A DNA stretch of 64,000 nt from Tetradesmus obliquus (Eukaryota; Chlorophyta; Chlorophyceae; Sphaeropleales; Scenedesmaceae). Each line of letters starts with the position of its first letter. Positions within the stretch are counted from its first letter, which is position 1. Positions 1-62,512 of the stretch are shown here, piece after piece. The translations under genes were made by a program, and so were the position numbers. Under the pieces are notes generated by a model that saw only the letters and a list, made by a program, of their open reading frames with translations, ran no database searches and was not told where the DNA came from. The stretch covers positions 2,728,001-2,792,000 of the forward strand of contig CP126200.1 in NCBI GenBank assembly GCA_030272155.1, read 5' to 3'.

Positions 1-39
1 CGCACATGCACCCACATGCACACACAGTCACATGCTCAC

Positions 40-97
40 ACGCACCTGCACATGCGGACCTTCCTGTGCGTGTGCACATGCACGTGCATTGCACTGC
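40..97 (-). repeat. Echo of CRAL-TRIO exon 6 donor edge
   Basis: Resembles 129-178, which holds the 3' end of exon 6. On the minus strand it reads HVHVHTHRKVRMC before a GTGCGTGT donor-like site, against LLHVHTRKKIRMC in the true exon. It lies within a CA/TG-rich region at the window start. A shorter echo of the exon's 5' edge (LYMVRLP) lies near 300-325. Confidence 0.65.
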
Positions 98-134
98 ACT
101 GCACACGCACCCACATGCTCACACTGACACGCAC

Positions 135-1716
135 CTGCACATGCGTATCTTCTTGCGCGTGTGCACGTGCAGCAGCTGCAGGCAGGCCTTGAAGGTCCAG
201 CGCAGCGGGAAGGGCAGCCCGACCATGTACAGCACCTGCAGCCAGCACCCGCAGAGGCAGCAGGGTGTTGGCACTGCTGCCAAAAATGCGTGACTGGGCA
301 GCCTGACCATGTACAGCATTTGCTGGCAGCGCCCACCAGAGGCGTTGCATGCTACCACGACATGACCCAGGAGCTGGAACACGGGCATATGTGCGGTGTG
401 GTGCAAGTGTGCAGCCCAAGACAACAAGCAAAAAGTGACAAATAACTTGTAACAAGTGACAAGACGATGTGACAGGTAACGCATTCTCACCTGCAGCCTG
501 CAGGGGTACATGCGGTCCATGACGTGCCCCACGCGCTGAAACACGCCGCGGTTGCGCAGCGTGGTGCCGATGTGCACCCCTGAGGTGTCCACCACCACGC
601 GCAGCGTGCTGGCGCAGTGGCACTCGCCGATGAGCTGCCGCACACCATACTCCATCTGCGAGCAGAGTTGCGGAAGCAGTGGGCAGCAGCTTGTGGGGTT
701 GTGAGGCAGGATTTCAGGCTGTTGTTTGCCAAATGCCATGAAGACAGTCACAGCCTTGGTGCGCTGGCGCCGCACAGCGCGCCGCAATGCAATATGGTTC
801 ACTGCACGTTTATCACACGTCGCAAGCGATCACTACTGCATGGTACAGAACACAACAATGCAGGGCATGAAGTGCGCTTCATGCATCGCCGCACCACAAC
901 ATGCGCAGTGCATATGCATAAACGCATGTAACAGCATCTCCCCTCCCCTACACACTCACGTTGGACACCAGCACGCGTGCCACCAGCTCCGGCCCATGTG
1001 TCCTGCTGGCGCTGACTGCTGCCCTGAAGTCGATCATGAGCCACAGGTGCCCTTCTGCATCAGGCCCCTCCCACCACGCAATGCGCTGCCACGCCGCCAG
1101 GTCACCTGCAGGCCCATATGCAATCAAGCAGGAGCACAGAATGCGCAGCTCTCAGTGATTACACAGATAGATTGGTATAACTCTTGGGACGTGTGCGCCT
1201 TTAGTATTAGCTCAAGGTGGTGGCACCTGCGCGTTGGTCGCCTTGGAACAACAAGCTTGAAGTCAATCATGAGCCACAGGTGCCCTTCTGCATCGGGCCC
1301 CTCCCACCACGCAATGCGCTGCCACGCCGCCAGGTCACCTGCAAGGACGTGTAGCAGCACCCAGCACATACAGTAAGTGAGCTGCGTGCGTGGCTGCAAA
1401 CAACGGTGGGATGTGACATGTTCCGGCTGCAGCAGTGACGGGCACAGCAGACCCTGTGCTGTTACATTGCGCACAATACAGAGGCACCCTGGGTACCCAA
1501 AACAGGTACAAGCGCAGCCTTTGGTTTGTGTGATACAATACAATACTCTCAGGACCAAAACCTGCCTCAGGCTCACGCCCAGCTAGGACTTGGTGCTTCC
1601 CCAACTTAGTTTACCTGGTGGTATGAAGCTGTACTTGGCGTGCCATGCTGCAAACTCCTTGATGTTGGACATGGTGCGGTCCATGGCCACCAGCGCATCC
1701 TTGAGGCTGCGAGCCT

Positions 1717-1762
<46 letters not shown>

Positions 1763-2335
1763 GGTGAGTCACAGTAGAACATGGTGAGGGTTGCTACATT
1801 GCAGTTGCACGGTTGTAACAGAATTGGCTACATTACCGCACTTGCAGGATGTTGTAGCAGAGCGCAAAGCGCATCAGCTCCTCGTCCCCTTCCGGCCCCT
1901 CAGCAAACAGCGCCTCAGGCAAATCCACGCCCGCCTGCGCCCCCGCAGCAGAGCTGTCTGTTGCGGGCACATGCACTGCTGCCCCGCAGTTTGCTGTCAT
2001 CCTTCCCCATCTACCACACTATGCACACAAAGCCTACCCACTCTTTTTTCACCCCAGAAGAACATTTATGCTAGGTCTATCGCATACCTGCAGGATGTTG
2101 TAGCACAGCGCAAAGCGCATCAGCTCCTCATCCCCTTCCGGCCCCTCAGCGAACAGCGCCTCAGGCAGATCCACGCCAGCCTGCGCCAGCCGCCCCCGCA
2201 GCAGCAGCAGCCACTCGCGGTAGATGGTGCAGTAGTCTGCCAGGCTGCGGGGCATGCGGGGGTCCACGCGCGGCACCACTGACAGGCCCAGCTGGAGAGC
2301 CCGCACTGCAAGAGTCAACAAAGTTCAAGGTAGAA

Positions 2336-2366
<31 letters not shown>

Positions 2367-2962
2367 ATGTGAGGCACGGTAGGCAGGCCCAGCTGCAGAG
2401 AGCGCACTGCTCAGGTGATGGTCACAATGATAGCAGACAGCATCAGCAGCAGCAGCAGGGGCGGCGACGGCGGCATGTTATTGTTGTTGGTGGTGCAGTA
2501 GTCTGCCAGGCTGCGGGGCATGCGGGGGTCCACGCGGGGCACCACCGACAGGCCCAGCTGCAGCGCGCGCACTGCAAGATTAAACAAAGTTGAAGGTAGA
2601 ACAGCAGCAGCAGCAGCAGCAGCAGCACGTGAGGCACAGCAGGCAGCCCCAGCTGCAGAGAGCGCACTGCAAGATAAACAAAGTTGAAGGTAAAACAGCA
2701 GCAGCAGCAGCAGCAGCAGTGACATGTGAGGCACGATAGGCAGACACAGCTGCAGAGAGCGCACTGCAGAAAACATGGTCACAATGATAGCAGCATCAGC
2801 AGCAGCAGCAGCAGCAGCAGCAGCGGCGGCGACGGCGGCATGTTGGTGGTGGTAGTGGTGCAGTAGTCTGCTAGGCTGCGGGGCATGCAGGGGTCCACGC
2901 GCGGCACCACTGACAGGCCCAGCTGCAGCGCGCGCACTGCAAGATGAAACAAAGTTGAAGGT

Positions 2963-3004
<42 letters not shown>

Positions 3005-3906
3005 CAACAGCGGTAGCAGCAGCAGCATGTTAATGTTGGTGGTGGCACAGCAATGTGCCAGGCTGCGGGGCATGCGGGGGTCCACGCGCGGCACCACTGA
3101 CAGGCCCAGCTGCAGCGCGCGCACTGCAAAAATGCAGTATTCATGCAGACGAGGAGCAGCAGATGCAGCAGCCATATGTTGGAGTGATGTCCTTCAAGGA
3201 GGATCAACAGCAAAAGGCAGCAGCACCAGGTGATTGTAGCTGGGTGGCAGGAATTTTGGGACACCACACGGAGCAGCCCTGCTGGCGCTGCCAGATATAT
3301 TAGCCTTGTGCTGCCCCTGCTGCTGCTGCCCCTGTGCTGCTGCCCCTGTGCTGCTGCATTTGCTTTGGTTTTAGATGCAGAGCGCTGCAGCCACGGCAGC
3401 TTGGTCACCGCTATGCATATCTGCTGCTTCCACTGCCCTTGATCATTACAAAATGCACTGCTGCAGCAACCGAACACACCTTCTGTGCCCTCTCTGCCCG
3501 CCTTTGCTTCATCTTTGTTCTCCCGCTGCTGCACCACACTGCCCACCAGCCGCACCCCTTGCGCCAGCACCACTGCAGGGGCCCAGCCCCTAGCCAGCCT
3601 CAAGCTAAGCAGCAGCAGCAGCTTCAGAGGAGCCGCAGAAGCATGCCCGACTTGACCAACAGGCTGCGGCACATGCATGTGCCCATGCCGTTGCCTGCTG
3701 CTGCTGCTGATGCTGCTGCTGCTGCTGCTGCTGCTGGGTGGTGCGGCTGCAGCAGCTGATGCATCTGCTGCATCTGCTGCTGCTGCTGTTTGTGTGGAGC
3801 TGTCTGCGGATGTTCTGATCAGGGGCGCTGCGAGTGCTGCTATCTCAAAGATGGTGGTGAGGGTGGGGGCTGCCCTTTGGCAGCGGCAGGTAGCCACTGC
3901 CTGCAT
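135..3906 (-). CDS. CRAL-TRIO (Sec14-like) domain protein, 3' end outside window
   Basis: Proposed exons, 5' to 3' on the minus strand: 3906-3480, 2305-2088, 1714-1615, 1105-960, 655-491, 235-135; splice phases agree across all joins. The first exon is low-complexity (Ala/Ser runs) and the least certain. Exon 2 carries the short basic/hydrophobic CRAL-TRIO N-terminal region (DEELMRFALCYNILQARSLK continues over the junction). Exon 4 has GDLAAWQRIAWWEG and exon 5 has LRVVVDTSGVHI, the hydrophobic strand of the lipid-binding fold, followed by MYPCRLQ. Exon 6 continues LYMVGLPFPLRW and TRKKIR, which match the YPERL...NAP.FR...KPFL...T..KI order of Sec14 proteins. By family it would bind and transfer a hydrophobic ligand such as a phospholipid; the ligand cannot be told. 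The C-terminus lies before position 1. The introns are full of copies of its own exon edges. Confidence 0.8.
1263..1341 (-). repeat. Echo of CRAL-TRIO exon 4 (5' edge)
   Basis: Almost identical to 1030-1106, the start of exon 4. It keeps the acceptor CTTGCAG and reads GDLAAWQRIAWWEGPDAEG in the same phase, but diverges after MIDFK, loses the exon's donor and runs to a stop. It could be a non-functional duplicate or an alternative exon; the copy at 1105-960 has a clean donor and is the one I used. Confidence 0.8.
1843..1946 (-). repeat. Echo of CRAL-TRIO exon 2 (3' edge with donor)
   Basis: About 100 bp nearly identical to 2091-2190, the 3' half of exon 2 encoding the stretch up to FALCYNILQ. 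It sits in the intron just downstream of the true exon and includes the tgcaggatgttgtag end of the exon. The upstream half of the exon is missing. Confidence 0.8.
2380..3131 (-). repeat. Array of CRAL-TRIO exon 2 acceptor-edge copies with CAG tracts
   Basis: The start of exon 2 (RALQLGLSVVPRVDPRMPRS, real copy 2305-2235) recurs in the upstream intron. Long copies lie at about 2500-2577, 2866-2942 and 3050-3128; short copies of only about 25 bp lie near 2388-2412, 2645-2670 and 2740-2768. They are separated by (CAG)n runs and a recurring spacer with caaagttgaaggta (near 2585, 2680 and 2948). This makes a higher-order repeat of exon edge + acceptor + spacer + triplet tract. Most copies keep the AG acceptor. 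Confidence 0.85.
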
Positions 3907-5817: not shown

Positions 5818-8800
5818 TGACGTGCCAGCAGCAGCGCCACCGGCTGAGCCGCCGGCCGCAGCAGCTGCAGCAGCACTGGCAGAGGAAGCAGATCCAGGGG
5901 CAGCAGCAGCAGCAGAGCTGCAGCAGGGGGATGTGCACGATGCTGCTGCTGCTGCTGCTGCTGCCACTGCTGCTGCTGCTGCTGCTGCTGCCGCCGCTGC
6001 TGATGAGGATGGTGGCCTGCAACAGCAGCTAGGTGTGCTCCAGCTGAGCAACCCCTGGAGGCCTTTGGGAGCCACAGTGGCCAGCATAGCAGCAGGTGGG
6101 TGCGTGGTCAAGCTGCAGCAGCTACGTTACTGCATATATCACGTATGCACTAAGCTGCCTACTGTGTCTGCAGTTCAGCTGAACTTGTGTGCAGTTACCT
6201 GCCAGCCTTTGCTCATGCCTTCTATATCCCACAAACATGTTGTTACTGCCAACACATTCATGTCAAACGGCATATGTGTCCATATGTTTGGCCTCTTGCA
6301 TGCGTGCCACATGCCTTGCCACGTGTGTGCAGGCGCTGGTCATGTGCTGGCTGTCACCGAGTGTGGCCAGGTGTGGGGCTGGGGCCGCAACACGCAAAAC
6401 ATACAACTCTGCATGGAGTTGTCTAAAATTTTGAGAAGCTCAATTTGTTTGACCTCCTGCATGCCGTGGCTTGTGTACACCTGGACTGCAGGCGCTGGTC
6501 ATGTGCTGGCTGTCACCGAGTGTGGCCAGGTGTGGGGCTGGGGCCGCAATGCGCAAGGCCAGCTGGGGCTGGGCCACAGCCGGGCCTGGGTGGCAGCACC
6601 AACAGAGGTCACAGCAGCACTTGAGGGCGCGTGGAAGGTGCGCAGCAAGGTATAATAGCAATAGAGATAGAGGGGTGCACACTTTGTGGCCATCACCATG
6701 GGAATTGGTTGGTTCCTTATTTGTGCTTGTGTTGTGAAGGCGTGCAACAGGCCACTCATCACTAGCTGCTGCACAACAGCAATGCCCCTCTCCAACGTCA
6801 ACGTGCACCTGTGTTTGATACCTGCCGATTGATTGGCGCTATCTCCTGCAGGACGCTTGTGATGTCAAGGCGTGCAACAGGCTACTTAACACTGGCTGCT
6901 GCACAGCAGTTTCACTCTGTCGCCAAAATGCACCTGATGTTGACACTTGATATCTGCCGATGTGGAATTTCCCCTGCAGGGTGCTGCTGACGTCATCACA
7001 TCAGCTGCCTGTGGTGACGCTCACAGTGCGCTGCTGGCTGCCAGTGGGGCTGTGTTCACGGCTGGCTGCAACAGGCAGGGCCAGTGCGGACAGGACCCTG
7101 CACTGCAGCTGGTGAGGGTGATGCTGGTGGAAGTGGTTATTGGTGCATTTGTTGGTGCAATTTGTGGTGCATTTTTTGGTGCTCGCCCTGCACTGCAGCT
7201 GGTGAGGGTGGTGCTTCTCTGCTGGCCATCTGCACGCCATAATGGTGAATCTGTAATTGCTGGTGCTTACACTGGTGCTTAATACAATTTGCCGCAGCTC
7301 ATGACAGCAGGTAGCGGTTAACATACCGGTTCCTCGTGAAAGTTAGCAATGGTTTCAGCTGGTGCAGCGCCCAGCTTGACAGAGGAACAGCTTCTGCTCC
7401 TGCAGCATACAGTCACAATACAGTTCCTTGGAGGTATCAATGTACTTCTGTGTGAAGGAGCTTGTGGTGAGACCTAATGATGCCGTCGCAGCGTTCATGA
7501 TAGCAGTCTGCTGCTGTTGCATTGCTGCTGCTGCTTGCAGTGCCCGGTGTTTTGCCAGCCGTCGCTGCCTGGCAGCAACCCCGACCCTGTCAAGGCAGCA
7601 GCGGTTGCCTGCGGCACAGCCAACACAGCAATCGCCAGCCGCCAAGGTAACTTGCGAAGCAAGGCTTGGCACCACCAGCACAGTGTGGTTGTTTCTCATT
7701 GGTTGCCTGTTGCAGCTGGCAGCTAATCCGTGCAACCGATAAAGTATGTAGCTCTGCTACATGCAGTGTAGCATTTACAGTACGACAGTGTTGAGGTTTT
7801 TGTGCTGTGCTGGCGGCTGTCGGTGCCCTGGTGCTACAGTACGACAGTGTTGAGTTCTTTGTTACATTACATTACAATACATGCTCCAGTCAAATGAGGA
7901 GTGGGAACTTCAGTCAGGTTGTGCTGTGCTGGCGGCTGTCGGTGCCCTGGTTGCTTCAACCAACGCCAGCCATATTGCGCTGCTTTGTCTGCCAACCATC
8001 AACCTCCTGACATGTGTTTCCTGCTGTCCTGTTTGCAGGCCACCTGCTGGTGTGTGGTGACGCATCAAGTGGCCAGTGTGGGCAGAGCTGTATCAAGCAG
8101 CGCTGCTGCTGGCAGCTTGTGGACCTTGGCCCTGAACTGGGCTGGCACGGGCTGACACGGCCCACAGCAGCAGAGGTGGCAGCAGCAGGCGGTGCTGTGG
8201 CGCAGGCGCTGCCAAAGGTGTGTGTTGCTGCTGTCAAAGGCTTATTGAGGCTTATTGAGGCTGATTGAGGCTGATTGAGGCTTATTAAGGCTTATTAAGG
8301 CTTATTGAGGCTTCTTGAGGCTGATTGAGCCTGATTGAGGCTTATTGAGGCCTGGGTATTCTGGTGGAGCTTTGGAGAATATTTCTTTGGTGCACGGCTA
8401 CAGCTGATCCTGGCATGGCAATGCTGCCACAGCAGCAGCTGCTGCCAGATGATGGACGCATACGAATGTACGTCAGGTGTTGATGAGGATCCATGCTTGT
8501 TGCTACTATTGTATGCAGGAGCTGAGCTGCTTGCAGCTTCCTAATTTACCAGGTGTCTGTGGTGGCGTATGCCGCATGAACACACCGTGTAACCCCTCTA
8601 TCTATTGTTGTGCTGCAGGTGGTGGATGTTGCAGTGGGCTGCGGCACCTGCTATGCTCTGACAGATGGCGGGGACGTGTATGCCTGGGGAGCAGGCAGCA
8701 AGGGGCAGCTAGGGCGAGGTAAAGTTGCCGGGATGTTGCTGCTGTATACACGTGTATGTATAAACTCATATGATTGCCTGGCAAGAGAAGCCTGACCGCG

Positions 8801-17041: not shown

Positions 17042-17082
<41 letters not shown>

Positions 17083-19454: not shown

Positions 19455-20021
19455 TGGATGACAATGGCGAGTAGGACAGCAGCGCACAGCAGGCAATGAG
19501 GACTGTTCTTGGGCTGCAGCTGGGAGGGGCTTCAGGCAATAAGAGATGTACATAAGTGTCCAGCAGTCAATGTTACATATGCTTGAGACGGCCTACATGC
19601 AGCTGGGGTGCTGGCAGCAGAATGTAAACATTGGAATGACTGCGCCAATGCTACGGTGAAGCATCGAACCTTTTTTTACGCAATGTTGTAGAGAACTTTT
19701 AGCGGTCGGCAAAAGAGCGGCGCACGTGTGGCAGAACCCTTCTGCTGCAGTCATGGATTCACATGTACAGTGCGCTTGACATCAACTCAACTCGCATATG
19801 CGCTACACCTGCAGGGGCTTAAGCCAACGTATCAGGATTTTGTAATACGAATCATATCTAAAACTTGTCTCAGCGGTCCAACACGAGGTGACTGAAGCAT
19901 TTTGCACCGTACGCAGCAGTAGCAGTCCGTGTGACTGGGATCTCGACAGTGCACTCTAGATGGTCGGAGTACAACCCCATTTGCCCTCAGTAGATTGAGT
20001 TGGTTCATTATCGAAGGCCTG
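19455..20021. other. Intergenic 567 bp
   Basis: Contains the presumed 3' UTR of the preceding gene and the promoter/5' UTR of the next one. No coding or structural feature was recognised besides the TGTAA motif. Confidence 0.5.
19623..19627 (+). terminator. Possible TGTAA polyadenylation signal, large low-complexity gene
   Basis: TGTAA lies 169 bp after the stop codon at 19454, within the 567-bp gap before the next gene. Confidence 0.45.
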
Positions 20022-28440: not shown

Positions 28441-28441
28441 C

Positions 28442-38367: not shown

Positions 38368-40263
38368 GCGCCAGAGGCCAGTGATTGAAACCGGGAATGA
38401 CAGACGAGTCTCTCCATTCATGTTCATGGCAGATGTGAGCATGCTGCTGCAGCGCTCGTGCGCAACTTGCAGTGGCACTGCTGTGACAAACCTGCAGAAC
38501 CCGCTGGCTGCTGCAGCCAGGGACGTGCTGCTGCGTTGCATCGTGGCTGTGAAGGGCACCATTCCATCGGACTGGATGTGGCAGTGTGACTGCGAGACGG
38601 CAGTGGCTTAGGGATGAGAAACAGGCCAGCTTTGGGGATCAGGCCAGTGGTTGCAGCCAGCCGTTCACCAATGAGCCATTCACGTGGAGCTGCAGGTGGC
38701 AGCATGTCCAGCTGCCATTGCGAGGATGGCTTTTTGCATTGTACTGACGGAAGGCATGAGTGCTACAGTGTAGCAGGTAGACATCTGTGCTGTTGTGTGC
38801 GGCGACAGGCAGCATGCATGATGGTGCGCATTGCCACCAGCAGAGGCGACACAAGCACGGCTCATCTGGTAACAAATCAATTACAGGCTTGTGAGCAGCA
38901 CCTCCCACATTGTCAAGGCTTGCTCTGCACAGCACCTGGTGCGTAAAGAGAACACAATCCACTGCCACAACACAGCAACATGACCTGCTTGCAGGCAGCT
39001 ATGCACAGCTAACATCTGTGCCAAAACTACTGGTAGCCTTCCTTAGTACCTATAACCACAGCTCAGCACAAAGACACGATACAAGCTGCGTGTTTGCAGC
39101 ACCACGCCAGACAACCTGCAAGGCTTACCAAAACAAAACTGAGGCATATATTGACAGACCTCAGCACAAGCAACACGACTATACGGCATATAATCAATTG
39201 GCTGCACAGCACAGGACAAGCACCCAGGCTTGCAATGCATAGGCACAGCTTACAAACCAGCTTGCAAGCTCCAGCGGACAAAAATCGCACGTGTTTGCAA
39301 GCGCAGCAGGCTGGCCCACAGCATGTACACTGCATTGCAGCGACAAACCACTAACTGCATTGCTGCAGCCAGCTACGCTGAACTTACAATGCGGCCGTGA
39401 CAGCACATTTACACTGACATATCCGCGTGGCTCAACAGCAGCACAAGACAATACAGGACGCCAGGCACTGGCAGAAACTCCCATTAGTCACTGCATGCGA
39501 CGCTGCAGCCCTGCTAGTTCGGCTGCAGCTCACTATACAACATCTTTCTTCCCGTCCACCAAACAGGTGCAATAATACACATGACTAGTCAACATGTGCG
39601 CTGGATGCTATGATGTTACCGTGCAGCTGCTGCTGTCATCTATCTCCAGCTGGGCTGGCCATGCCTGCTGTTGCTGCTGCTGCGCTCTGCCGATGGAACC
39701 TGAGACTTTGGCTCGCTGCTGTTGCTGCCGCCCCCGCTGCTGCTGTTTAACGGCAGGCGCGCGCTGTAGGGACCTGCAGCAGCAGCAGGACAACATAATG
39801 TCAGACAGGAGGCCAGCATTCCAGCAACTGCACACTCACTGCACAGTGCATAAGGAACAGCCACAAACGGCAAGCACAGTCCAGCAACGGAAAGTGGTGC
39901 TGACAGAACAAACAGTGGACAGCGTCTCAGGCTGCGTGCAATGCCAAAGGCAGCTGGGCTGCTCACCATCCACACGTGAGCTTGGTATGCTGATGTTAAG
40001 CTTCTGGGAGCTGCTGCGCTGCGTGGAGCGCTGCGGCGCCTGCGGGCAGGTGAATGCAGGCAGTGTCAGCCACGCAGCTGCCGGCAATTTAGATAATCTA
40101 CAACCATGGCCTCCTTAGCTGACAGCAGCAGCAACGGCAGCAGTCATGCTCGATGAGGAGCTCGACGGACGCACTCAGTAGGACACCTTAACCAGGTTGG
40201 CCCTGCCAATGCTAGCGCGCTACAAGCACAGCAGGCTGTGATACTGCTGCATCTTCCCTTTGG
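38368..40263. other. Convergent intergenic region, 1.9 kb
   Basis: Between the monooxygenase (plus) and kinesin (minus) 3' ends. Besides the duplicated terminal exon I see only short frames, A/C-rich sequence (39000-39560) and CTG-type triplets around 39670-39790. No gene is supported. Confidence 0.45.
38440..38619 (+). repeat. Duplicate of monooxygenase terminal exon, splice-competent by inspection
   Basis: Copy of about 38190-38369 at an offset of 250 bp. It preserves LQNPLAAAARDVLLR and GTIPSDWMWQ. CAG-to-TAG now stops the frame at 38609-38611. A TTGCAG acceptor at 38467-38472 would join to exon 5 in the correct phase, so the segment 38473-38611 could be an alternative last exon. Confidence 0.8.
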
Positions 40264-43200: not shown

Positions 43201-46200
43201 CAGGCAAGCTACTGTAGCTGGACCTGCCTTGCTTGTTGCCTCCAGGAATGGAGCGCCGGTGCGGGTGCTGGCTGCCTGCTGCTGCAGACTGCTTCTTGTA
43301 TCCCTTCCAGTCGACCTCTAGTGCATCCAGCTTTGCTGCTAAGTCTTGAGCAGCCAGGCCAAGCCCTAAGCTGCCAGATCTATCAGGCCGCCGCAAGCCG
43401 CCGCTGTTGGCGGTTGCAATGCCGCCAGCAGCACCAGCCGCAGCCAAGTTGGCGCCCCCTAGGCTGATGCTCGCTCTGCTGCTGCTGCTGGCTCCTGCAA
43501 GTGAGCTGCGCAAGCTTCCGCCGCCTTCGCTCAAAGAGGAGCGCTTGCCAGCGATAGCCGGCTCAGCAGCTGGCTCTGCGGCAGCTGCTGCAAAGGCGCT
43601 GCTGCTGCCCTTGCCTACTGCTGCTGGGTCGCCGCTGCTGCTACCAGCGATGGTGGGAAAGCCCCCAAAGCTGCTTGAGGCTGCATCTAATGACCCGGAG
43701 GTAGATCTGGGCGAGCCAGGGCTTGATCGCCAGGCCTGACCTGCCATCTGTAGCCGCAGCAGCTCCTGGTACCTGCTGCTGCTGTTGCCGCCGCCAGGTG
43801 AAGCATAGCGCTGCCTGCCAAGGCTGCGTCTGCCCACGCTGTTGTGTGCATAATGGGCCCTGCCAGCCAGTGCGTCTGCATGTGCGCTGCCAGCTGGCGA
43901 GAATGCGTCATCTGAAGGAGTTGGCGTCTCCATGATAGGAGGCAAGCCCATGCTGTGCAGCAAGTTGTCTGCTTCAATGTCTACATCATCACGCCCATCA
44001 TGTGCTGCCTGAGGCCCTGGGGACACCCCTGCAGCAGCAGCACTGCCCAGATGCCCCAGCAGGTCTGCTACACCCGCAGCATCATGCCTGCCAGCTGCTG
44101 CTGCAGCTGCAATCGCCGCAGCAGCTGCGGCTGTGCGCCCCGCAGACTCCTGCTTCGCCAGGCGTGCACGGAGCCTCGCTGCTGCTGCCACAGTAGCTGG
44201 CAAGCTGCCATCATTTACGCAGCCGCTGTCATCGTCCTCCTCACTATCGCTGGCTGCTGCTGCCGCTGCAGCCAGCGCCAGATGGTGGGCCGGAGTCGTG
44301 ATGACTGCTGCTGTGGTGGCTTCTGCTTCGAGGGCCTTGCGCTTGGCCTCTGCTGCCTGCTGCACTGACATGTCCAGCTTGATCTGCAGGATGTCTGCTG
44401 TCTCCTGCAGCTTGGCCAGATCCATGGCACCCTCGCACACCTAGGCGGTAGCAAAGCAGACAATAGCTAGTCAGCAATACCACAAACATCCCAAGAGCTG
44501 CGGTGTGCGCCTCCATTCAGCCAGCTAGGCTGCTTTGACCCTAGTATGGCTAGTCTATGCTGCTTGTGACCAGGTAATCCAATCAGTGAGATGCCCACAA
44601 GGAAGCCCCCAGTGCAGGAACCACCTTCTGTGAATGCGCTGCATCCTGTTCCCACACATAGCAGCTGTCCATCCACTTCTCACGCCACCTGAGCCACCCA
44701 CCTGAGCCTTTTGTGCGCAGGCGCACATGAACAGCGTGCGCAGCAGCTCGCGCGCCTCGATGATGTTCCGGATGCCTGTCCAGCGCTTGACGTCCGCAGC
44801 GCCAGCGCCGCGCGACTGCTCGTCAGCGCGCGCACGCTCCCACTGCTCTTGCAGCTCCTGCAGCACATAACAGGATGCAATGTTTGAGGTAGTGAAGCTG
44901 GCCGTCACTTCTACTCCTTCGGGAGCCAATGACACAACGCGGACCATCAAACCGCCGACAGGCAGGCGTGAGACATGCCATGACAACTGCTGGTTGCTGG
45001 GTGCGGAGTGCTGTGCAAACAAGGCCTGCAGGATAAGCCAGCTGTTAATACAGCAGCGCAGCAAGCCCATGCACTTCCTCACCTTGACATTGGCGCTGTG
45101 CTTGTCAATTGCTGCCTGCAGCCGTGCTGCTTCCTGCTGCAGCACCTCCTCCCTCGGCAGCGCAGCCTTGGCTGCTGCAGCAGCAGCTGCAGCTGCGCCT
45201 GCGCCGCGGCTGGCTGCGGCAGCTGCAGCAGCAGCGGCAGTGACCACTGGGCTGGGTGGCACGAGGCCTCCCAGCAGCATTAGCTGCTTCTGCACCTCGC
45301 GCAGCTTGCGGGTGGCCTCTGCGCGCTGCGCCAGCTCGCCATCAAGCACCTGATGCAGAGCATCAGCGGAGAATGATGCATGGTGTAAGGGAAGGCTGCA
45401 ACCGCACGATTCAAGGGCTGGCCCAGTTGCATGCAAGCAATTTTCTCACTGCCATCTGGTGCCCTCGGCAACAGCCATACTCTGTCCAGTTTTTCGAAGC
45501 GTTCATAAACATTCCTCAACAGACCATTGACCGTGATCTTCTTGATCCTTGATCCATCAATGAAAAGGCTTGTGCTGTCAAATGCAACCCCTGCTGTGTG
45601 CGCAGCTGCCTCCTCTCACCTTCTGGTACTGCCAGCTGGTGCTGCACAGCTCCAGCTCTTGCTCCACCCACTCACGCCGCGCCTTCTCAGTGCGCAGCAG
45701 CGGCGCGGCTGCGTTGGGCTGCAGCTCAAGGTCAGCCGGTGCACTGCCTGCAAGGCGAAGGCGTACACAACAGTGAAACAGGTTGTTAGGGCCGCCGGGT
45801 GTGTAAGGCGCCTGCTGCAGCTCAAGGTCAGCTGGCGCGGTGCCTGCAGGGCCAAGCAAGCACAGCACAGGCGTGGCAGACAGGTGCTAAGGGTGGTGGT
45901 GTGCACACTGGCGAGGCGGCTGTTGCTCACAGCGCACAGCGAGAGCAACAGCTAAAAGCTGCAGAGCGAGGCCAGGTGATGGCAAGGACTGCAATTAAGG
46001 GGCTAGGGTAACCCCAGCCAGCCTGGAGATCGCAGAATCGGCGTCAGCACATGCTGTGCATGCAGCCACGCTACCATAGGTGCGCAAACACACAGCGACG
46101 GGCCCTCCACATCAACGCAGCCCTGCGGTGGCATGCTCACCGCACTCGTCTGTGCCCGCGCCCTGCCCGGGCCGCTTGTCCCTGCGCACACGCGCCTGCA

Positions 46201-52515: not shown

Positions 52516-55500
52516 TCATTCCATCATCTGCTGCGTGTACGCCATCTTGCGCTTCCAGTCGTCCAGCGTCAGCAGGCTGCGCCCTGCCATGTCCTGCTGC
52601 CGCTTCTCTACGCTTTGCAGCCACCGCAGGCCCAGCAGGCGCTTAGGCAGCAGCGCGCTAGCAACCTGGCCCGGCGGTGGCAGCCTGTCCAGGTCTATCT
52701 TCAGGTCAAGCACCTGCAACAGGCCAACAGGCGGCAACGGCGGCGATACTTGGTGTTAGGCGCTTACAACCGCATTTGCCCTTGAACCGCCTGCACGCAT
52801 GTGTCCTCATCCTTGTGCCACACCTACCTACTTGTTGCACTTCAGACCTCATCAATGTGTCAGTGCAATTCCTGCATGCCGCCTTTCAGCAGGTCAAATT
52901 TATGCTGTCAAGCCGCTGGTTCCCGGCACACACCAGCCATGCTGCTGTGCAGCATACGCAATAACACGAGCTCTGCTGCTGTGCAGCAGTCACACATTTG
53001 CCATGCCTATCACTGTCATATTACAACAGCGCACCTTGATGAGCTCCGAGGGCGCCATGGTCTTCTGCTTGCCCTGCAGCAGCGTCACATCCACGCTGCC
53101 CTGCCGCTGCATGCCGCCCTCTGCTGCTGCTGCCTTGGCTGCCTCCTGCTTCTCCTTGCTGGTCTGCCAGTACACCTTGGACTGCGTGTGGCGCCTGCTG
53201 AACACGTCGTTGCCCTCCTTGCCTTCCTTCTTGATGCCAGTGCTGGGGCCCACGCCTTGGAAGATCTGCGGGCACAGGCAAGAAGAGGATGCAGGAAGAG
53301 CAATGCAAGTCAAACAGCTGTGCAAGCCTGCTGTCTTCAACCATGACCTGCTTGCTCCCTTCTTTCTGCCAGACCTTGGGCCCACGCTTTTGACGACTCT
53401 GATTGAGTGAATGTGATTAGCCATGTGGGCTGACTGACACAAACATGACTCGTTGCGCACCTTGAGCACGTTCTTGTCCCTGTTGCGCATGTTGATGACC
53501 GCAAGCGCCATCTCAGTCGTGAGCTTGGCGCCGCCAGCAGCAGCGGCAGCAGCAGCAGCGCCCATGCCGCTGCCTTCTTTTTCTGCGCGAGCCGCCTGGA
53601 TTGCTGCGTCCGCCTGCTGCGTGCGCTGCCGCTCCTGCTGCTCCAAGCGCTCAAGCTCATCCTGCAGCCTGCAGCACAGCATGCAGAGCAGGCAGGTGAG
53701 CACATCCCATTATATCGGCATACACAGCAGACGCCAGCAGCACTGCGAGCGTAACTCGGCGAGGTGCTGAGGATCGGCATCAACAGCTCAGGACACCAAA
53801 GTGCTGCGTGCCTGTCTATTGCATGATCCACCTGGTGGTCCAGGAACGCAGCCTTGGACCTTTTAGCCGCTGCTGTCCGCACTTTTGCATGAAGGCCGTT
53901 ACGGCACCACACTGCCCTCCACCCATATCTCAAGCCCACGCCAACACCACCTTAATCAACAGCAGTCAACACCGGTCAACCCACCGCATGACCACGTCTT
54001 CCGGCTTGCCCTCTTGCCGAGCGATGTTCAGCTCGTGCGTGAGCCGCGCCCTCCGCTCAGCCACAGTGCCCGTGCCCTTGCCTGCTGCGCGCTTGCGGTC
54101 CAGCAGCTGCTTCACCAGCACCGCATTGTACTTGAAGCTGCAGACATGCAAAAGCCAGGTCAGGTCAGGTCATGTCAGGTTGCGTCGGGAGCAGCTTATT
54201 GTGCAGGGCCAGGTGCAGCACTGCTGCTGCCAGCCCAGTAGCCATGCAGCAGAGTTTGAGAGGTTGCTGCTCACTGACCAAGCACAGCTCACTGCAAAGG
54301 GCTAGTTGCAGCACTGTTGCTGCCAGTGCTGTGCCTGTGCAGCCGTATGCGGCAGGTTGCTGATCACTGACCCAGCATCAGCATTTGGGACTTGTAGGCC
54401 ACGCCAGAGCAAAACAAAATTCATCTGCACGTAGATTGACTATCCATCCCAAACGCTGTTATACATCTCTGTGAACCTTTAGGTGCATGACAGAGTAATA
54501 CTTGCTGATGAGCTTAACTCGTGAGTGCTGCGGTCACTCACTTGCGCGCGTGCTGCAGCCGCTCCTGCGCCTGCTGCACGTCGCCTTTGGTGATGAACTT
54601 GCTGTGCCCGCGCTGCGCCTTGGCCAGCGCCTTGTCATACTCGGCCTGCGTGACTGCGCTGTTGCTGACCTGGCGTATGTTGCAAACCACACAGCACACA
54701 CGCAAGGAGCGGTTCAGCGCATGCCCTAGTATGATGCAGTCAGTGATACTCGGCCTGCGCCACCGCGCTGTTGCTGACCCGGGCAAAATGCAGCCAAGCG
54801 GCATGCAGACTAAAATTATGATCAGCAGTTCAGCCAAGTTATATGATACAGTCGGTCACACTCCGCCTGTGTCACCTCGCTGTTGCTGACCTGGCACACA
54901 AGCTGACAGTACAAAGGCATGTCATTTCTCACAGCAGCAAGCCCTGTCAAGCCTCACCATGCTCATCTGGTGCCTGAACACGCTGCCGCCTGACAGGTCG
55001 TCCATGTGCAGCCACTTGCGCGTGCGCGACGCCTTAGACCCAGCAGGGAACCTGCGGCCGCACAGCCACAGCACCGCCAGCAGCAGCAGCAGGCAATAGC
55101 TAGTAAGATACAGCCATTCCAACTGCATGCCGCTGCTAGAAGCAGACGCGACGCACAGCAGTCGAAACAGGCTGCGCATACTCAATCCAAAGCTGCACAG
55201 CATGCCAAGCACGCAGGCTGTTGAACTTCAACACACAGCAGCGCAGCACACGCGCAGCGCCGTCCACACAACTATTTCTGTTCTTTGCGTCAATTTGCAA
55301 ATATACAGCAGGTTGGCAGCGGTTGTCGCTCCCTCTCACGTGTAGCTGTTGCGCGTGACAATGTCGCTGATGCGCGCCAGCAGGTAGGACGGCTGCCCCG
55401 TGCGCGCCTGCTCCGCGCTGTTCACGATGCGCAGCAGGCAGCCCTTCACATCTTCCTCGAAGAACGGCTCGCCGTGCCAGGCTTCCAAGTCGCTGCGGCG

Positions 55501-58023
55501 CAGCGTGATGGAGAGCACCTCGTCCAGCGTCGCGCGCTCCTCGCTCTCCTGCAAGCATACAGCAAGCATGAAACAAGGTTTGGCAGTTGCCAGCGGCTGT
55601 GCTTGGGTGTGTGTCTCGTGCGCGGCCGATTGGAAGAAGATATGCACCTCTTCCAGCATCGTGCGCTCCTCGCGCTCCTGCAAGGGGATGGTGCAAGCAG
55701 TGTGAACAATGCGTGCAGAAGATGTGACGCTGTACATCTCCTCGCTGTCTGCAAGGGGTGCGGCAGGTTTGCAATAGCCGTGTCAGTTGTGAGCCACATG
55801 CACCGTCCACATCCTCTTCAGACAGCCCCATCCTGCCAGGCTTCCTGCATCGCACGCTCCTCACTGTCCTGCAAGGGGTCCAGCCAAGGTGTGCAAGCAC
55901 TGAGCAGGAAGAAGTTCAACAGTACAAGCCGGCCGGCGTCAGTCATCATTGACGCTGCTCAGGACCTGCAAGACGGCGCGCGCTTCGCATTCTTACAAGT
56001 GGTGCGGGTTTTTTTGCAAGCGATGCATCGTGCTGCATGGTGTGTTGCGTGTCTGTTGCATTGTCATGTGCGTGCCAGCTTTCCCCACCACTGCTGTAAC
56101 CTGCACCCCTGTTGCTTTACAATAAACATCAGCTGGCACCTCAAGTTTCTGCCCCAGTGGCGCACCTCATAGGAGCCTGCCCCCTCATCATACACCTCTG
56201 TGCGTGTGCCCAGCTGCCCGGCAGCCCTGTCTGCTGCTGCTGCTGCCTCCTCCTCTTCCTCCTCCTCCTCTGCTTCTAGCTCCTGCAGCTCATCACTGTC
56301 CTCGGCTTCTAAGGAGGCATCTGCGAGCATCAACACACAACAAAAGACACAGCAAAAAAACGTTAGCGTTACTAACTGCAGCAAGACAGCGGTCAGCAGA
56401 TGACCCCAAAGGGCGACGCTAGCAGCTGCGCTAGCTCGTTATATCAAGAGAACACATGCAGCGTGGTTGCTCGAGTGCTGCCTTGACTATCTGCTGTGGC
56501 TACCTGTCTCCGAGGCCATCTTGTGCTTGTAGGAGCTTGCCTAAAACTTTTCGCAGTCGCTGTTCAGCGCTGCGCCCGGCTGCTTCTTGGCATCACAATC
56601 CTGAACGTGCACTGTAGCTTCTGACCTGCTGCAGCTGCTGCCACCCCCAGCTAGTCCACTGCCCCCAGAAGCCGCCTGACGTACATAATTCACTGCCATC
56701 ACTGCTGCTGCATGCTGCGGATCTGCCAACCTGCAGCACAATCGACGATGCTGCCCCTTGCTTACTGCCCCTGGCTGCACTGCACATGCAGCAGCGCCCG
56801 CTACCCCCCACCCACCAGACTCCTCTGCCTCTTCTTCCTCCTCCTGCTCCTCATCTTCCTCATCCTGCTGCTGCCGCTTCTTCCGGCTGCGCTCTGCTTT
56901 CTCCTCCTCCTGCTGCTTCTTCTTCTGCCGCTCCTCGCGCTGCGCATGCGCTGCTGCGATGCGGCCGATGGCAGAGTCGGTGCCTGTCTGTGTGCGGGGG
57001 CGGCGCGATGAGGCGCGCACCTCCACCTGCAGATGCAGTGAGATGCGGCAATCATGCAGTTAAGCGGCACAAAGGTGCAGGTAAGCAGGCAGGGTGCAGC
57101 GCTTGAATGCAGGTGATGCAGAAAGGGCGAGAGAAAGAGGTGCAGAAGCGGTGAGTGCAGATGTGCGGTTGCTGACAGCGTGGATGCTAAAATGCGCTGC
57201 AAGAGCTGCAGTTGCTGAGGATAGAGAGGCACCGATCAGCTGCGTTCTCACCCACACAGAAGCTGGCGGCATGGCATGCAGCTGTGAGGTTCGAGCAGGT
57301 GCAACTGCTGTTCACGTCCTTTTGGCAACCGTGCTTGAATGATGCAGCGTCCATTCCAAGTCCACAGAACAAGCTACACATGACAGGCAGCTGCCCAGCA
57401 CTGCTAGATTGTACTCATGGCAGCATAGAAGCTGGTGATGCTGCCGTTATTGCTGCTACATGAGCGTCTGGCTGCTACTGCTGCTGTGGCTGTTTACAGA
57501 ACACCTGCTGCGACCTGTCTGATATACCACAGCTGTTGCACGCAGCAGTGATACTGTGCATGCGCAGCAGTGCATCAAAATCTGTTTAACTTTCAGCTCC
57601 CTATCAGTTTGGCACAACAAGTTGCCCGTGTCACCCCACGAAACAGGGTATGGCCTTGCTACTGCTGCTGCTGTTGCTGCTGCTCACCTGCTCTGCCTCC
57701 TTGCGGACTTGGGTGAGCACTTGCTGGCGTTCTCGCTGTCTCTGTAGGATTTCTTCCCGCTCAAACAGGTACATCTCACGCTCCAGCTCATTCATGCCCT
57801 CCAGCTTGGCCCGCTCCTCAGCATCCATCCCGTCATCATCTGATTCCGAGTCATCGCTGTCCGCTGCTGCTGCCCTGCGCTTAGGTGCAGGTTTTTGCTG
57901 CCGTGCTGGGCGTTCCTCCTCATCCTCAGAGTCATCTGCCTTCCGGTTGCGCTTTTTGCCTGCTGCTTTGCTGCCTCTGCCCGTCACCAGCAGCAGCTCC
58001 TCGTCGTCAAAGTCCTCATCCAT
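52516..58023 (-). CDS. RTF1: RTF1, Paf1 complex subunit with Plus3 domain (640 aa)
   Basis: Exons, 5' to 3': 58023-57688, 57026-56816, 56320-56166, 55548-55340, 55051-54958, 54669-54542, 54137-53985, 53668-53461, 53265-53035, 52713-52516; all phases agree. The N-terminus is acidic (MDEDFDDEELLLV) with KK/RR patches and MNELEREMYLFERE, a motif kept in RTF1. Exon 2 is a charged coiled coil. Residues about 235-375 form the Plus3 domain (TLRRSDLEAWHGEPFFEEDV, KGCLLRIVNS, YLLARISDIV, KWLHMDDLSGGSVFRHQMSM). It binds phosphorylated SPT5 and helps recruit the Paf1 complex for H2B ubiquitylation and elongation. The C-terminal half keeps coiled-coil stretches and NDVFSRRHTQSKVYW, typical of plant RTF1/VIP5. 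Introns carry several echoes of exon edges. Confidence 0.92.
53350..53402 (-). repeat. Echo of RTF1 exon 9 (5' edge)
   Basis: ccttgggcccacgctt and neighbouring bases match the start of exon 9 (53222-53265 region), though diverged. Located about 100 bp upstream of it in the intron. Confidence 0.55.
54205..54375. repeat. Tandem duplication of about 94 bp in an RTF1 intron
   Basis: gcagcactg-tgctgccag is followed by a CAGC...gaggttgct/gcaggttgct-gctcactgac stretch at about 54212-54279 and again at 54306-54372. Confidence 0.6.
54743..54898 (-). repeat. Two echoes of RTF1 exon 6 (5' edge)
   Basis: The exon start VSNSAVTQAEYD (54669 downward) recurs as ctcggcctgcgccaccgcgc at about 54748-54788 and as ctccgcctgtgtcacctcgc at about 54858-54897, each with a gttgctgacc acceptor edge. 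Period about 110 bp. Confidence 0.8.
55640..55885 (-). repeat. Three echoes of RTF1 exon 4 (5' edge)
   Basis: The exon start ESEERATLDEV (55548 downward, acceptor CTTGCAG) recurs upstream in the intron near 55645-55683 (reads ESEERTMLEEV in part), 55735-55758 (short) and 55838-55873 (DSEERAMQEAW). All keep a CTTGCAG-like acceptor. Confidence 0.8.
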
Positions 58024-58795: not shown

Positions 58796-61412
58796 GAGGC
58801 AGCACAGCAGCAGAAGTGACAATTGTCGCTGCCAAGAAGAGTTTGAACTTCGCTGTTTGCATGCACCTGTAGTCATCAGCATCTTGGCAATCGTGTCGTT
58901 GACCAAGCCAGCGCAATGACGCCAGGCTGCCTCCAGTAATAAAATGACAGTGCTAGTAGTACTGTGAGCCCTTGGCAGTCACGCCGTGATCGGCGGCCGA
59001 TGACAAGGACCCTGTCCTGGTTGGCAACAACGGACAAATGGGGCAATTGTTTTGTCGAGTAAGCCAGGCCAATAACCCCAAGCTGCTCACTTGTAGTAGT
59101 AGTGCAAGCCCTTGGCAGTCAACATGGACAAGGTCAAACATAGACACATAGGACGTTCATGTCCTCAAGTTGGCCAGGCCGCTCACTTGTAGTAGTAGTG
59201 CGAGCCTTTGGCAGTCACAATGCCCAGCAGCTCGCAGGCCTCCAGCAGCGTGGCGTTCATGTCAATGCCCTTGTTGAACTGGATGATGAACTCCGCTGAC
59301 CTGCAGCCATGCAGATAGGCACAGGGTCTAGATCAGTTGGGCAACCCCAGCGCCACACTCCTGCTGCTCCTGCTCTAGAAACCGTTGCAAGCCATCTTGT
59401 GCGCAGCTGTAGGGCGGTGCCACCTTGTTCTCAACCACCTAGGCCTGTACATTCACCCCAAAAGTGGGCAGAAAAAGGCCAGGCAGCACAATTCTACTGC
59501 TGCTGCTGCTGCTGCTGCTGTTATGACAGACCGGGTCACCTGTAGGGCGGTGCCACCTTGTTCTTGACCACCTTGGCCTTCACGCGCACCCCTGTCTCCA
59601 CCTTGTCAGGGCCCATCACCTTCTCCCGCACGCGCACATCCACGCGCTGGCTGGCGTAGAACTTGAGCGCGTTGCCGCCGCTGGTCGTCTCAGGGCTGCC
59701 AAACAGCACGCCCACCTGGCGTGCACAGGGCAGCACAAGACATAACAGTCGTCAAATCACGACAGTCATGGTAGAATCTGAGCGCGTTGCCGCCACTGGT
59801 GATGTCAGGGCTGCCAAACAGCACGTCCACCTGGCGCGCATAACTTATGCAGCATAACGTAGCGGCCACCCCGGTCAGAACATAACAGGCATGCGCAGAT
59901 GATCAGCACAGCACATCAGCACGGTACATCAGTTGGCTGCATTTGGCTACACGACTGCAGGCACATCACGCCCACCTTGTAGCGCAGCTGGTTGATGAAG
60001 ATGATGGTGCAGTTGGTGCGTGACGCCACCCCGGTAAGCTTGCGCAGCGCCTGAGACATCAGCCGCGCCTGGCCCGCAACCTGGCGGCAGCAGCAGCAGC
60101 AGCAGTCAAAACGGCGGTCAACTCAGCCAAGGTTATCATCCGGATGATCATCCGGATCCAGCAACAGCGGCAGGAGCAGCAGCAGCAGCACTGTCTGACT
60201 TCCATGGTCTGGCAAGCCAGCAGCAGCTGCAGCAATGCTCCGGCAGCTCTGCGGCATTGTGCCTGCCGATTTGCTGTATCTAGCTGCCGGCCGATGGTCC
60301 CTTCATGCTCTGCTCGTGGTGTCAGGCTCACACCATGACCAGTGCTCACCGCACTGGCCGCAGAGCAGCAGCAGCAGCATCACCTGCGCCATGCCAATAC
60401 CTCCTTCATGCTCTGCTCGTGCTGCTCATGCTCATCATGACAGCAATGGCTGCACTGTATACAGCATCATGCACAGAAGCAGTACACGCCGCCCCACCTG
60501 CGCCATGCCAATGTCTCCTTCGTGCTCCGCGCGCGGCAGCAGCGCCGCCACGCTGTCCACTGCAATGAGCTGCACCGCGTGACTGCGCAGCACCGTGTCC
60601 ACCACCTGCAAGCAGACAGCAGAAATATAGACAAAAGACAGATATATGGCTTCAGCTGCTGGTGGGTGCCTAAGGTTGAAGCCGAGGGTTGCTCGGGCAC
60701 GCCAGACCAACGCCACACGTCACATGTCGTCAGGGCCGCGTCATGCTGGTCGGTTGCTGCGGCAGCCTGTTGCAACTAGTGGGCTATTGACATAGCGATT
60801 GCTGCAGCTACTGGTGGGCTGTATCTACTGGTGGTTTGTAACAACTGGTGGGCGCTGACTCAGCCCCTGCCCACCTCCAGTGCCTCCTCTCCACAGCTTG
60901 GCTGGCACACAATGAGCTCCTGTAGACACCAGACACACACGTGGCAGGGCAGGCAGCAAGGCAGGTCAGCAGCAAAAAGACAAGAAGCGTCATGACACAA
61001 GGCTGCTCATGAGCGCTGAGACACGGCTGAAATCTTGCCATATGTTATGCAGAACACAGTGCATTTCTGAGTACGTGCAGATCTGATAAATGTCACACTG
61101 GTTGCTGCTGTTTCTCCGCATAGTTCCCAGCAAGGCATTTATGTTTTACAGCACTCCCAAATTCACCCAACAGCGTCAGATACGCCTCGAAGAAATTCAT
61201 ACTGAAGCCGCAAGCCCACACTGCCAAAGTTCACCTTCAAGTTCACGCCCAGCTTGCGTGCGAATTCACGGTTGAAGGCGTGCTCGGCATCCACCAGCAG
61301 CGCCTGCCCGCCCGCCTTCTGCACCTCGGCAATTGCATGCAGCGCAAGCGTGCTCTTGCCGCTGCTCTCGGGCCCATACACCTCCACAATACGCCCCTTG
61401 GGCCAGCCGCCA

Positions 61413-61461
<49 letters not shown>

Positions 61462-61681
61462 CGGCCGACATAGAGTGAGACAAGTTGAAGCGAGCTCTTG
61501 CTGCTGCTCTTGGGCCCATACACCTCCACAATACGCCCCTTGGGCCAGCCGCCACCTGGCGGCAGCAGCAGCAGCAGCAGCAGCAGCACGACCGACATAG
61601 AGTGAGACAAGTTAATGTGGGATCTCGCCGCTGCTCTCGGGCCCATACACCTCCACAATGCGTCCCTTGGGCCAGCCTCCA

Positions 61682-61729
<48 letters not shown>

Positions 61730-61730
61730 C

Positions 61731-61776
<46 letters not shown>

Positions 61777-62512
61777 CAGCAGCAGATGCAGCAGCAACAG
61801 GACAGAGAGTGACAATGGTTAGTATCCTCCTGCAGGGCTCCTCTCCGGTGGAAAACATAGCAATGCCTGCAATGATTCCTTGGAACAGAGCGCGGGCAGC
61901 GCGTGCTGTAGATGCATGGCATAACAGCGCCCAGCTGAGCCACTGAAGCCTGCTGAGTACTGCACATGGCAGCACACTACCACTACCAGCCTACTAGACA
62001 CCAGCCTTATGAACCACATAACGCGACTCAAACCATCAGCCGAAAAGACAAACACAACATTTGACCTCACCCAGTGCAATGTCCAGTGTGAGGCACCCAG
62101 TTGAGATGCACTCCATGTGGGTGGCTGGAGTTTCCCCTAGACGCATGATGGTGCCACTGCCGAGCTTTTTGTTGAGGTGCTTCATCGCAGCATCCAGAGC
62201 TGCCACCTGCTGCGAATCTGCTGCCGGTATGCTGCCTGCAGTGCTGCCATGTGCTGCACGTGCGTGGGCTGCTGCTGCTGTGGCAGCAGGTGCTGAGTCG
62301 CTGCTGCTGCTGCTGCTTGAGGCAACATCTTCCTGATTGGCAGCAGGCGTGAACTGTGCTGCCTGCTGGTCTTTCTTAGCAGCTCTTGACCGCTTGGCGA
62401 TGTAGCTGCGCTGAGAGGCGTAGTAAGCTGCAGGTAAAGCGTGCTGTAGCACAGATGCGTGCTGGAGCACAGCATTCAGAGCATTGGGCACCAACTTGCC
62501 AAGCAGCGCCAT
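58505..62512 (-). CDS. Organellar RecA recombinase (454 aa, 8 exons)
   Basis: Exons, 5' to 3': 62512-62071, 61413-61235, 60919-60875, 60605-60498, 60080-59976, 59715-59540, 59300-59187, 58700-58505; phases all agree. The bacterial-type RecA core is complete: [17 protein letters not shown], the Walker A box GPESSGKST (residues 161-169), [19 protein letters not shown] (Walker B region and L1), [21 protein letters not shown] with SGGNALKFY (L2, DNA binding), and an acidic tail [11 protein letters not shown] like that of bacterial RecA. About 115 N-terminal residues precede the core; their start ([16 protein letters not shown]) suits a mitochondrial or plastid transit peptide. The protein would catalyse strand exchange and repair of organelle DNA. 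Introns prove a nuclear gene, not bacterial contamination. Five of its exons have edge echoes. Confidence 0.94.
58700..58800 (-). repeat. CTG tract serving as acceptor of last RecA exon
   Basis: About 30 CAG triplets on the plus strand (CTG on the gene strand), one interruption, ending exactly at the CTGCAG acceptor of exon 58700-58505. The repeat thus forms the 3' end of the intron. Confidence 0.9.
58950..59128 (-). repeat. Two echoes of RecA exon 7 (3' edge)
   Basis: The exon end [11 protein letters not shown] (59187-59219) recurs downstream in the intron at about 58955-58985 and 59090-59124 (tagtagtagtgcaagccctt), with ACTTGTAGTAG including the donor in the second copy. Confidence 0.8.
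59403..59452 (-). repeat. Echo of RecA exon 6 (3' edge)
   Basis: ctgtagggcggtgccacctt and the following ~15 bases copy 59539-59575, encoding [11 protein letters not shown]; in the copy a TAG interrupts further upstream. Confidence 0.8.
59765..59838 (-). repeat. Echo of RecA exon 6 (5' edge)
   Basis: Matches 59661-59720 ([17 protein letters not shown]) in the upstream intron: gcgttgccgccactggt...cagggctgccaaacagcac, with a CGCCAG acceptor. Confidence 0.8.
60285..60430 (-). repeat. Two echoes of RecA exon 4 (3' edge)
   Basis: The exon end [11 protein letters not shown] and donor (60498-60535) recur at 60386-60424 (cacctgcgccatgccaatac) and, shorter, at about 60293-60325. Confidence 0.8.
61485..61775 (-). 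repeat. Two echoes of RecA exon 2 with CTG tracts
   Basis: The exon start [19 protein letters not shown] (61413 downward) recurs at 61555-61490 and 61682-61617. The first copy has GPKSSSKS, which breaks the Walker A Gly; the second ends at GPESSGE. Each copy has its own CTGCCAG acceptor preceded by a (CTG)n tract, plus a shared spacer acatagagtgagacaagtt. Only the copy nearest the downstream exon is intact and longer. Confidence 0.88.

Follow-up and report, generated by a model that had tools for sequence, protein, structure and literature searches.

The window analysed here, a stretch of 64,000 nucleotides from the chlorophyte Tetradesmus obliquus (contig CP126200.1, positions 2,728,001 to 2,792,000), is part of contig 10 of a genome of 104.66 Mb in 17 contigs. 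Ab initio modelling recovered in it genes for a CRAL-TRIO protein, an RCC1 protein, a low-complexity protein, a beta-propeller-like protein, a FAD monooxygenase, kinesin-4, RTF1 and RecA. Exon edges in most of these genes recur as short direct copies, here called echoes, in the adjacent intron or past the stop codon, and this observation, made in a preliminary description of the window, was confirmed, while the interpretation given with it was partly supported. Pfam confirms the assignments of RecA, RTF1 (Plus-3), FAD monooxygenase, CRAL-TRIO and RCC1, those of RTF1, CRAL-TRIO and RCC1 in pieces, and the kinesin motor domain, which is not among these five, was confirmed by a separate search. 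The names kinesin-4, RTF1 and beta-propeller go beyond the domains found and are presumptive, in part taken over from the preliminary description.

The sequence analysed amounted to 341 kb in 34 stretches, consisting of the window, 25 sampled 10-kb loci and eight kinesin loci. The sampled stretches were taken at fixed places, 20 on contigs 1-4 and one each on contigs 5, 7, 9, 11 and 13, and are a spread rather than a random sample. Exon models were generated with a self-trained hidden Markov model (HMM) with repeat masking, which returned 515 exons (median 145 bp) and 449 introns (median 247 bp) with consistent splice signals (donor CAG/GTGAG, acceptor TGCAG/G, the slash marking the boundary). 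Echoes were searched with 40-bp queries against the 500 bp on each side, with triplet runs masked and a score of at least 40; exclusions were queries in which masked triplet runs made up more than 35%, genes scoring below 25 and introns longer than 1500 bp.

A direct copy within 500 bp was found for 66 of 681 exon edges, a count that is inflated because the HMM took some echoes for exons. Both kinds of edge were affected, as had been claimed for donors and acceptors (exon 3′ edges, 37/336; exon 5′ edges, 29/345), and mid-exon (24/1401) and intergenic (53/1637) queries had copies less often per query than exon edges did, so that equally frequent duplication of such segments, which the preliminary description had named as grounds for refutation, was not observed. 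The intergenic matches came mostly from a few satellite arrays. Local copies were also found for 9/272 and 7/244 intron-edge queries and for 77/1343 mid-intron queries, the last figure including the echo copies themselves. When the same queries were searched against other loci, matches fell to 0.01% overall and to 0.1% for exon 5′ edges. Echoes were present in 14 of the 34 stretches, bearing out the claim that the pattern recurs across the genome. In the window alone, 19 of 167 tested edges had a local copy, and 21 did at a score of at least 36, including edges in all six genes named in the preliminary description (which had counted at least 15) and in one low-complexity gene. A plain self-comparison of the window gave about thirty local direct repeats outside CAG tracts.

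A safer measure than the edge count is the number of arrays, obtained by clustering pairs scoring at least 44 with a period of at least 60 bp after low-complexity pairs had been dropped. Forty-five arrays lay across an exon edge (13 of them in the window), compared with five that were intronic only, four mid-exon/intron, three within exons and two intergenic; three of the five intron-only arrays were minisatellites with units of 10-50 bp. Repeats of other kinds were seen as well. Positions 1-1135 of locus L024 hold an intergenic, satellite-like array whose 191-bp units are up to 99% identical, and in the window a minisatellite with a 28-bp unit (about 14 copies at 96%) lies at 22522-22910 in an intron of the beta-propeller-like gene, with eleven copies of the 10-bp unit AGGCTTATTG at 8238-8351 in an intron of the RCC1 gene.

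Summed over six distance bins, in which one edge may count more than once, there were 114 direct and 0 inverted exon-edge matches, a result that insertion in both orientations does not fit. Of the direct matches, 106 lay within 500 bp and one beyond 1 kb, the density per Mb searched falling from approximately 200-270 at distances up to 150 bp to 0-1 at distances above 1 kb. A copy typically takes in 25-80 bp of exon, with intron sequence ranging from a few to 20 bp. The rate of echoes, scanned in steps of 20 bp, was 5.5% at acceptor and 7.4% at donor edges, dropped to 0-1.5% at 80 bp inside the exon and was 1-2% on the intron side of the edge. Of 33 intronic echoes, 18 lost homology within the first 10 bp past the splice site and 22 within the first 20 bp. 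Copies mostly carry one splice site and lose the exon part within 60-80 bp of the edge, and are not the whole-exon duplications of tandem or mutually exclusive exons, in which both splice sites are copied. Within 900 bp, echoed edges were present in two copies in 42 cases, three in 12, four in 5, five in 2 and six in 3, so that of the one to seven extra copies described previously, one to five were seen and seven was not reproduced at these settings. Most copies differed from their exon by 2-22%, at many distances, and a few were identical.

The copies had been described as often lying next to (CTG)n/(CAG)n. Such tracts were indeed enriched, occurring in 44% of 39 echo introns and 25% of 273 others (p = 0.019), but the link is weak, as fewer than half of the echo introns carry a tract and echo introns are also longer (median 321 vs 257 bp); triplet slippage as the only cause was rejected on the same figure. 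Between exon and copy, the spacers had a match in another locus of the 341 kb in only 7 of 49 cases, mostly short. These matches resemble triplet repeats and short dispersed stretches. No single mobile element is shared among the spacers, and on the 341 kb searched, insertion of introners was rejected because the matches were so few and short or repeat-like. One spacer, near position 288 on the minus strand of locus L029, shares 82 bp at 90% identity with L016 1487-1568, possibly as a dispersed repeat.

Echoes are not confined to splice sites. Seven of 34 stop-codon edges scored, and inspection left five true downstream copies and two that were not; the five lie in the FAD monooxygenase gene of the window, in L020, in L029 and in L033 (two, one of them in a Q-rich gene model that is doubtful). 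Three of the five end 0-4 bp from the stop and two extend at least 58-60 bp into the 3′ region, where the search began 60 bp past the stop with a query reaching to 60 bp past, so that the L029 copy may begin earlier and both L033 extensions are minima. Since stop-codon edges are echoed (5/34), copying restricted to splice sites does not describe the set. Duplications inside exons were found too, and all kept the reading frame, with a period divisible by three in 5 of 5 pairs at four places; among edge-intron pairs, the period was divisible by three in 6 of 37. All 18 intronic acceptor echoes are separated from the true site by a gap of 50 bp or more, and 14 of the 15 donor echoes by one of 70 bp or more, compared with 267/369 and 194/338 simulated random units reaching the acceptor and donor limits, these limits having been picked after the data were viewed and with 31 pairs whose copy was partly called exon left out of the count, some of which have shorter gaps (e.g. 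16, 31 and 47 bp). Taken together, the stop-codon echoes, the frame rule and the gaps look like a filter, by which duplications persist where the transcript can ignore them.

The copies themselves do not look like coding sequence under constraint. In the 33 intronic echoes, with the 31 partly exon-called pairs set aside, 52, 42 and 97 mismatches fell at codon positions 1, 2 and 3 (about 610 columns each), and substitutions comprised 93 synonymous and 95 non-synonymous changes. By our own estimate, this is roughly the pattern expected for one constrained and one free copy and not for two constrained copies. In the glutamate-cysteine ligase gene of L029, echoes were taken for exons by the HMM, and alignment to three solved chains showed that the gene reaches the last residue with the repeated segments as extra sequence, supporting the stop codon used for this gene.

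The echoed edges of the window are collected in Table 1. In the CRAL-TRIO pair with 98% identity, both mismatches are synonymous and homology of the intron flank is not detectable, and the FAD monooxygenase stop-codon copy has 21 mismatches in 179 columns, distributed 8/4/9 over the codon positions. Elsewhere in the window, a long gene model at 12725-19474 encodes an Ala/Ser/Gln-rich product of low complexity with CAG tracts and may be partly non-coding, and the stretches 29479-30096 and 32352-32979 are related (72% identical, partly coding), perhaps as a pair of pherophorin-like domains.

Table 1 Echoed exon edges and related copies in the window
Gene and feature	Position	Strand	Detail
CRAL-TRIO acceptor edge, exon 135-235, copy 296-343	212..343	-	83% over 48 bp; edge 235 score 41
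CRAL-TRIO acceptor edge, exon 960-1105 (81 bp exon, 5 bp intron), copy 1258-1343	1025..1343	-	98% over 86 bp
CRAL-TRIO exon segment (GVDLPEALFAEG...) twice, 246 bp apart, both called exons by the HMM	1840..2204	-	
CRAL-TRIO edge array (RALQLGLSVVPRVDPRMPRSLA...), at least 4 copies, CTG/CAG tracts	2225..3172	-	
RCC1 acceptor edge, exon 6492-6637, copy 6328-6397	6328..6556	+	97% over 70 bp; flank homology weak, present
RCC1 donor edge, exon 6980-7111 (16 bp exon, 14 bp intron), copy 7186-7215	7096..7215	+	97% over 30 bp
FAD monooxygenase exon-edge copy array, exons 35057-35153 and 35348-35499	35050..35391	+	
FAD monooxygenase last 183 bp coding and stop codon, copy 70 bp downstream	38185..38618	+	q -183..+1, t +70..+251
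Kinesin-4 acceptor edge, exon 45620-45747, copy 45814-45856	45718..45856	-	86% over 43 bp; edge 45747 score 40
RTF1 acceptor edge, exon 53035-53265, old copy 53343-53401	53209..53401	-	78% identity
RTF1 acceptor region, exon 54542-54645, two copies	54634..54895	-	repeat about 12 bp exon, remainder intron; edge below score list
RTF1 acceptor edge, exon 55340-55548, copies 55644-55684 (HMM exon) and 55841-55878	55515..55878	-	
RecA donor edge, exon 59187-59300, copy 59078-59121	59078..59217	-	91% over 44 bp; outside score list
RecA donor edge, exon 59540-59715, and copy	59404..59592	-	84%
RecA acceptor edge, exon 59540-59715, copy 59771-59840	59656..59840	-	89% over 70 bp
RecA donor edge, exon 60498-60605, and copy	60361..60533	-	80% over 61 bp
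RecA acceptor edge, exon 61235-61413, two upstream copies with CTG tract and flank, clean tandem array	61346..61728	-	

Flanking sequence was compared in 49 pairs, after removal of 15 of 64 whose gap was short or was itself occupied by another copy. In 31 of the 49, the spacer was significantly similar to the sequence past the copy in a shuffle test, indicating that the duplicated unit ran across the boundary. Together with the stop-codon echoes and the in-frame duplications within exons, this argues against the process that had been proposed from the window, a copying of splice-site regions. In a stricter anchored test against unrelated introns, p ≤ 0.05 was reached by 9 of the 33 intronic echoes and by 15 of the 31 partly exon-called ones, and of 37 edge-intron pairs, 8% aligned over at least 85% of the period. 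Arrays of several copies that share their spacers were found in L011, L020, L029, L031 and RecA, the clearest being that at position 7320 on the minus strand of L011, with three exon copies identical over 40 bp and two identical 83-bp spacers.

Direct copies at short distance, enrichment at coding edges, a near-neutral codon pattern, flank homology in many pairs, the frame rule and stop-codon echoes were all observed here, and we consider it rather probable that echoes are what survives of short direct tandem duplications that arise frequently across a coding/non-coding boundary. The duplicated unit, with a period of mostly 84-300 bp, would straddle a stop codon or a splice site, either 3′ or 5′. 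Provided that the original outer site remained in use, the extra piece of exon would come to lie within the intron or past the stop, the product would be unchanged and the duplication could persist, while duplications within an exon would survive only in frame. The extra copy would then evolve free of coding constraint while the true exon stayed constrained, and the pair would stay recognisable on the exon side and fade on the side of the intron or untranslated region (UTR). The transcript would presumably ignore the copies, and slippage or unequal exchange at repeats may both create and remove them and may refresh the exon part. Uniform tandem duplication, simulated with this filter and with guessed rates of decay, matched the split between exon 5′ and 3′ edges and the low intron-edge counts.

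Several results weigh against this account. Simple neutral decay of a single tandem event fits most pairs poorly: 40 of 49 pairs had flanks more diverged than it predicts, 23 of 49 had over-diverged flanks even with heavy indels, and in 15 of 49 heavy decay was rejected and flank homology was lacking altogether. In the L011 array described above, the outermost flank is unrelated; its deletion after birth was judged unlikely, by reasoning only, because the deletion end would need to land on the splice site. The simulation gave 205-330 mid-intron matches compared with 77 observed (2.7-4.3 times) and 112-190 intergenic matches compared with 53 (2.1-3.6 times), and edge arrays outnumber intron-only and intergenic ones (45, 5 and 2) beyond what a uniform process predicts. 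Either exon parts are refreshed from the exon, or duplications begin more often within or close to exons, or exon-derived sequence is slower to decay than non-coding sequence rich in repeats. Mosaic patches of identity reached p ≤ 0.05 in 3 of 46 pairs (combined p = 0.19), giving no support for homogenisation as an addition to the account. None of 25 start-codon edges scored, a zero that is not significant by itself. Heterogeneity among loci is strong: echoes were found at 31 of 90 edges in L029-L033, at 16 of 342 in L009-L028, at 19 of 167 in the window and at none of 82 in the kinesin loci L001-L008 (p about 1e-16, with edges within one array not independent).

The contrast between exon parts and flanks would also follow if, in old tandem duplications, the constrained exon were a template that kept overwriting the copy in its intron, either by unequal exchange or by gene conversion of short tracts, with the free flanks drifting out of recombination range. 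We regard this as possible but distinctly less probable than boundary-spanning duplication as the principal cause. It would account for the excess of edge arrays, and it is consistent with exon parts far more similar than flanks and with an exon identity between echoes (0.915) that is no lower than that between real edge and echo (0.908), values dominated by a few arrays such as L029. In the L029 array at 2273 on the minus strand, the far copy is the best exon match (0.97) with a flank of 0.71 and the nearer copy shows the reverse (0.90 and 0.88), and at 1375 on the plus strand of L031 the copy at the greatest distance is identical over 40 bp and those closer in reach 0.89-0.90, although the flank there is not discordant. 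Conversion by itself, however, should homogenise flanks as well, and mismatches were overall not clustered, as the mosaic test indicates, a result with which whole-copy conversion remains compatible. A broader reading, which we put forward tentatively, is that coding edges seed self-renewing echo arrays, the constrained exon serving as a lasting template that refreshes edge copies in the intron and 3′ UTR, with birth, homogenisation and loss in a steady state at several per cent of exon edges that would feed intron growth and changes in gene structure.

A process that copies coding edges or splice-site regions to nearby places with one end fixed at the edge, such as template switching or RNA-linked copying, would explain the sharp ends of the intronic echoes and the several copies of 95-100% identity without flank homology. 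We think it unlikely, as equally sharp ends occur in three of the five stop-codon echoes, which no splice-linked step predicts, and as it sits poorly with the flank homology of 31 of 49 pairs and the absence of inverted copies. That the copies are functional, as alternative or duplicated exons under selection, might be suggested by the HMM calling some of them exons and by the share of third codon positions among the mismatches (97 of 191); the near equality of synonymous and non-synonymous changes, the predominance of fragments with one splice site and the absence of the repeats from solved glutamate-cysteine ligases make it very improbable. The least credible explanation is an artefact of assembly or gene models. 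The models are ab initio and some echoes were mistaken for exons, but the divergence of most copies from their exons and the many distances at which they lie speak against it, and Pfam and solved structures fix the true exons of several genes.

If the sampled rate (66/681 edges, or 45 arrays) holds genome-wide, echoes of the kind attributed here to boundary-spanning duplication would supply hundreds or thousands of natural experiments bearing on the tolerance of splicing for duplicate sites, the lengthening of introns and the origin of new introns and exons. That exon parts are kept while flanks are lost is relevant to the question of whether an exon under constraint can homogenise non-coding copies of itself. 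Echoes make gene structures easy to misread while offering a view of how they change; in genomes of this kind, ab initio annotation will yield spurious repeated exons, as in the glutamate-cysteine ligase.

Boundary-spanning tandem duplications are known to us from scattered cases only. The statement in the preliminary description that no such system had been described was too strong, given two published reports. In the potato RdRp gene, the unit of a tandem duplication across an intron-exon boundary comprises the 3′ end of one intron together with the beginning of the exon that follows, and, as with echoes, a segment of the upstream exon copy turns intronic (PMC4974935). That is a single case in which a new intron arose with a recruited donor, whereas here there are dozens, including donors and stop codons, with no new intron demonstrated. 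Human segmental duplications contain internal tandem repeats at exon-intron boundaries that likewise alter gene structure, with 27 intron modifications after inspection (PMC2812944); that set concerns recent primate paralogues and variable repeats, whereas echoes are also found in conserved genes such as RecA and glutamate-cysteine ligase. Tandem genomic duplication is listed in a review as one of seven purported routes of intron gain (PMC3443670). Its AGGT form shares with echoes short intragenic tandem duplications that splicing can hide, but its unit is exonic and AGGT supplies both of the new splice sites, whereas echoes duplicate a boundary that already exists and lengthen the intron. Intron gain by this route was rejected for the echoes, which lie inside longer introns, with intron edges rarely echoed (9/272 and 7/244) and intron length not equal to the period. 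Introners, described as element copies inserted in many genes, have in common with echoes a recurrent genome-wide change in intron content (PMC9860276). A genome-wide account of exon-edge echoes was found in none of the open-access matches listed, as judged by titles and the openings of abstracts. Compared with these systems, the type of event is known, and what is new in Tetradesmus obliquus is its density, the inclusion of stop codons, and the contrast between the exon part that is kept and the flank that is lost.

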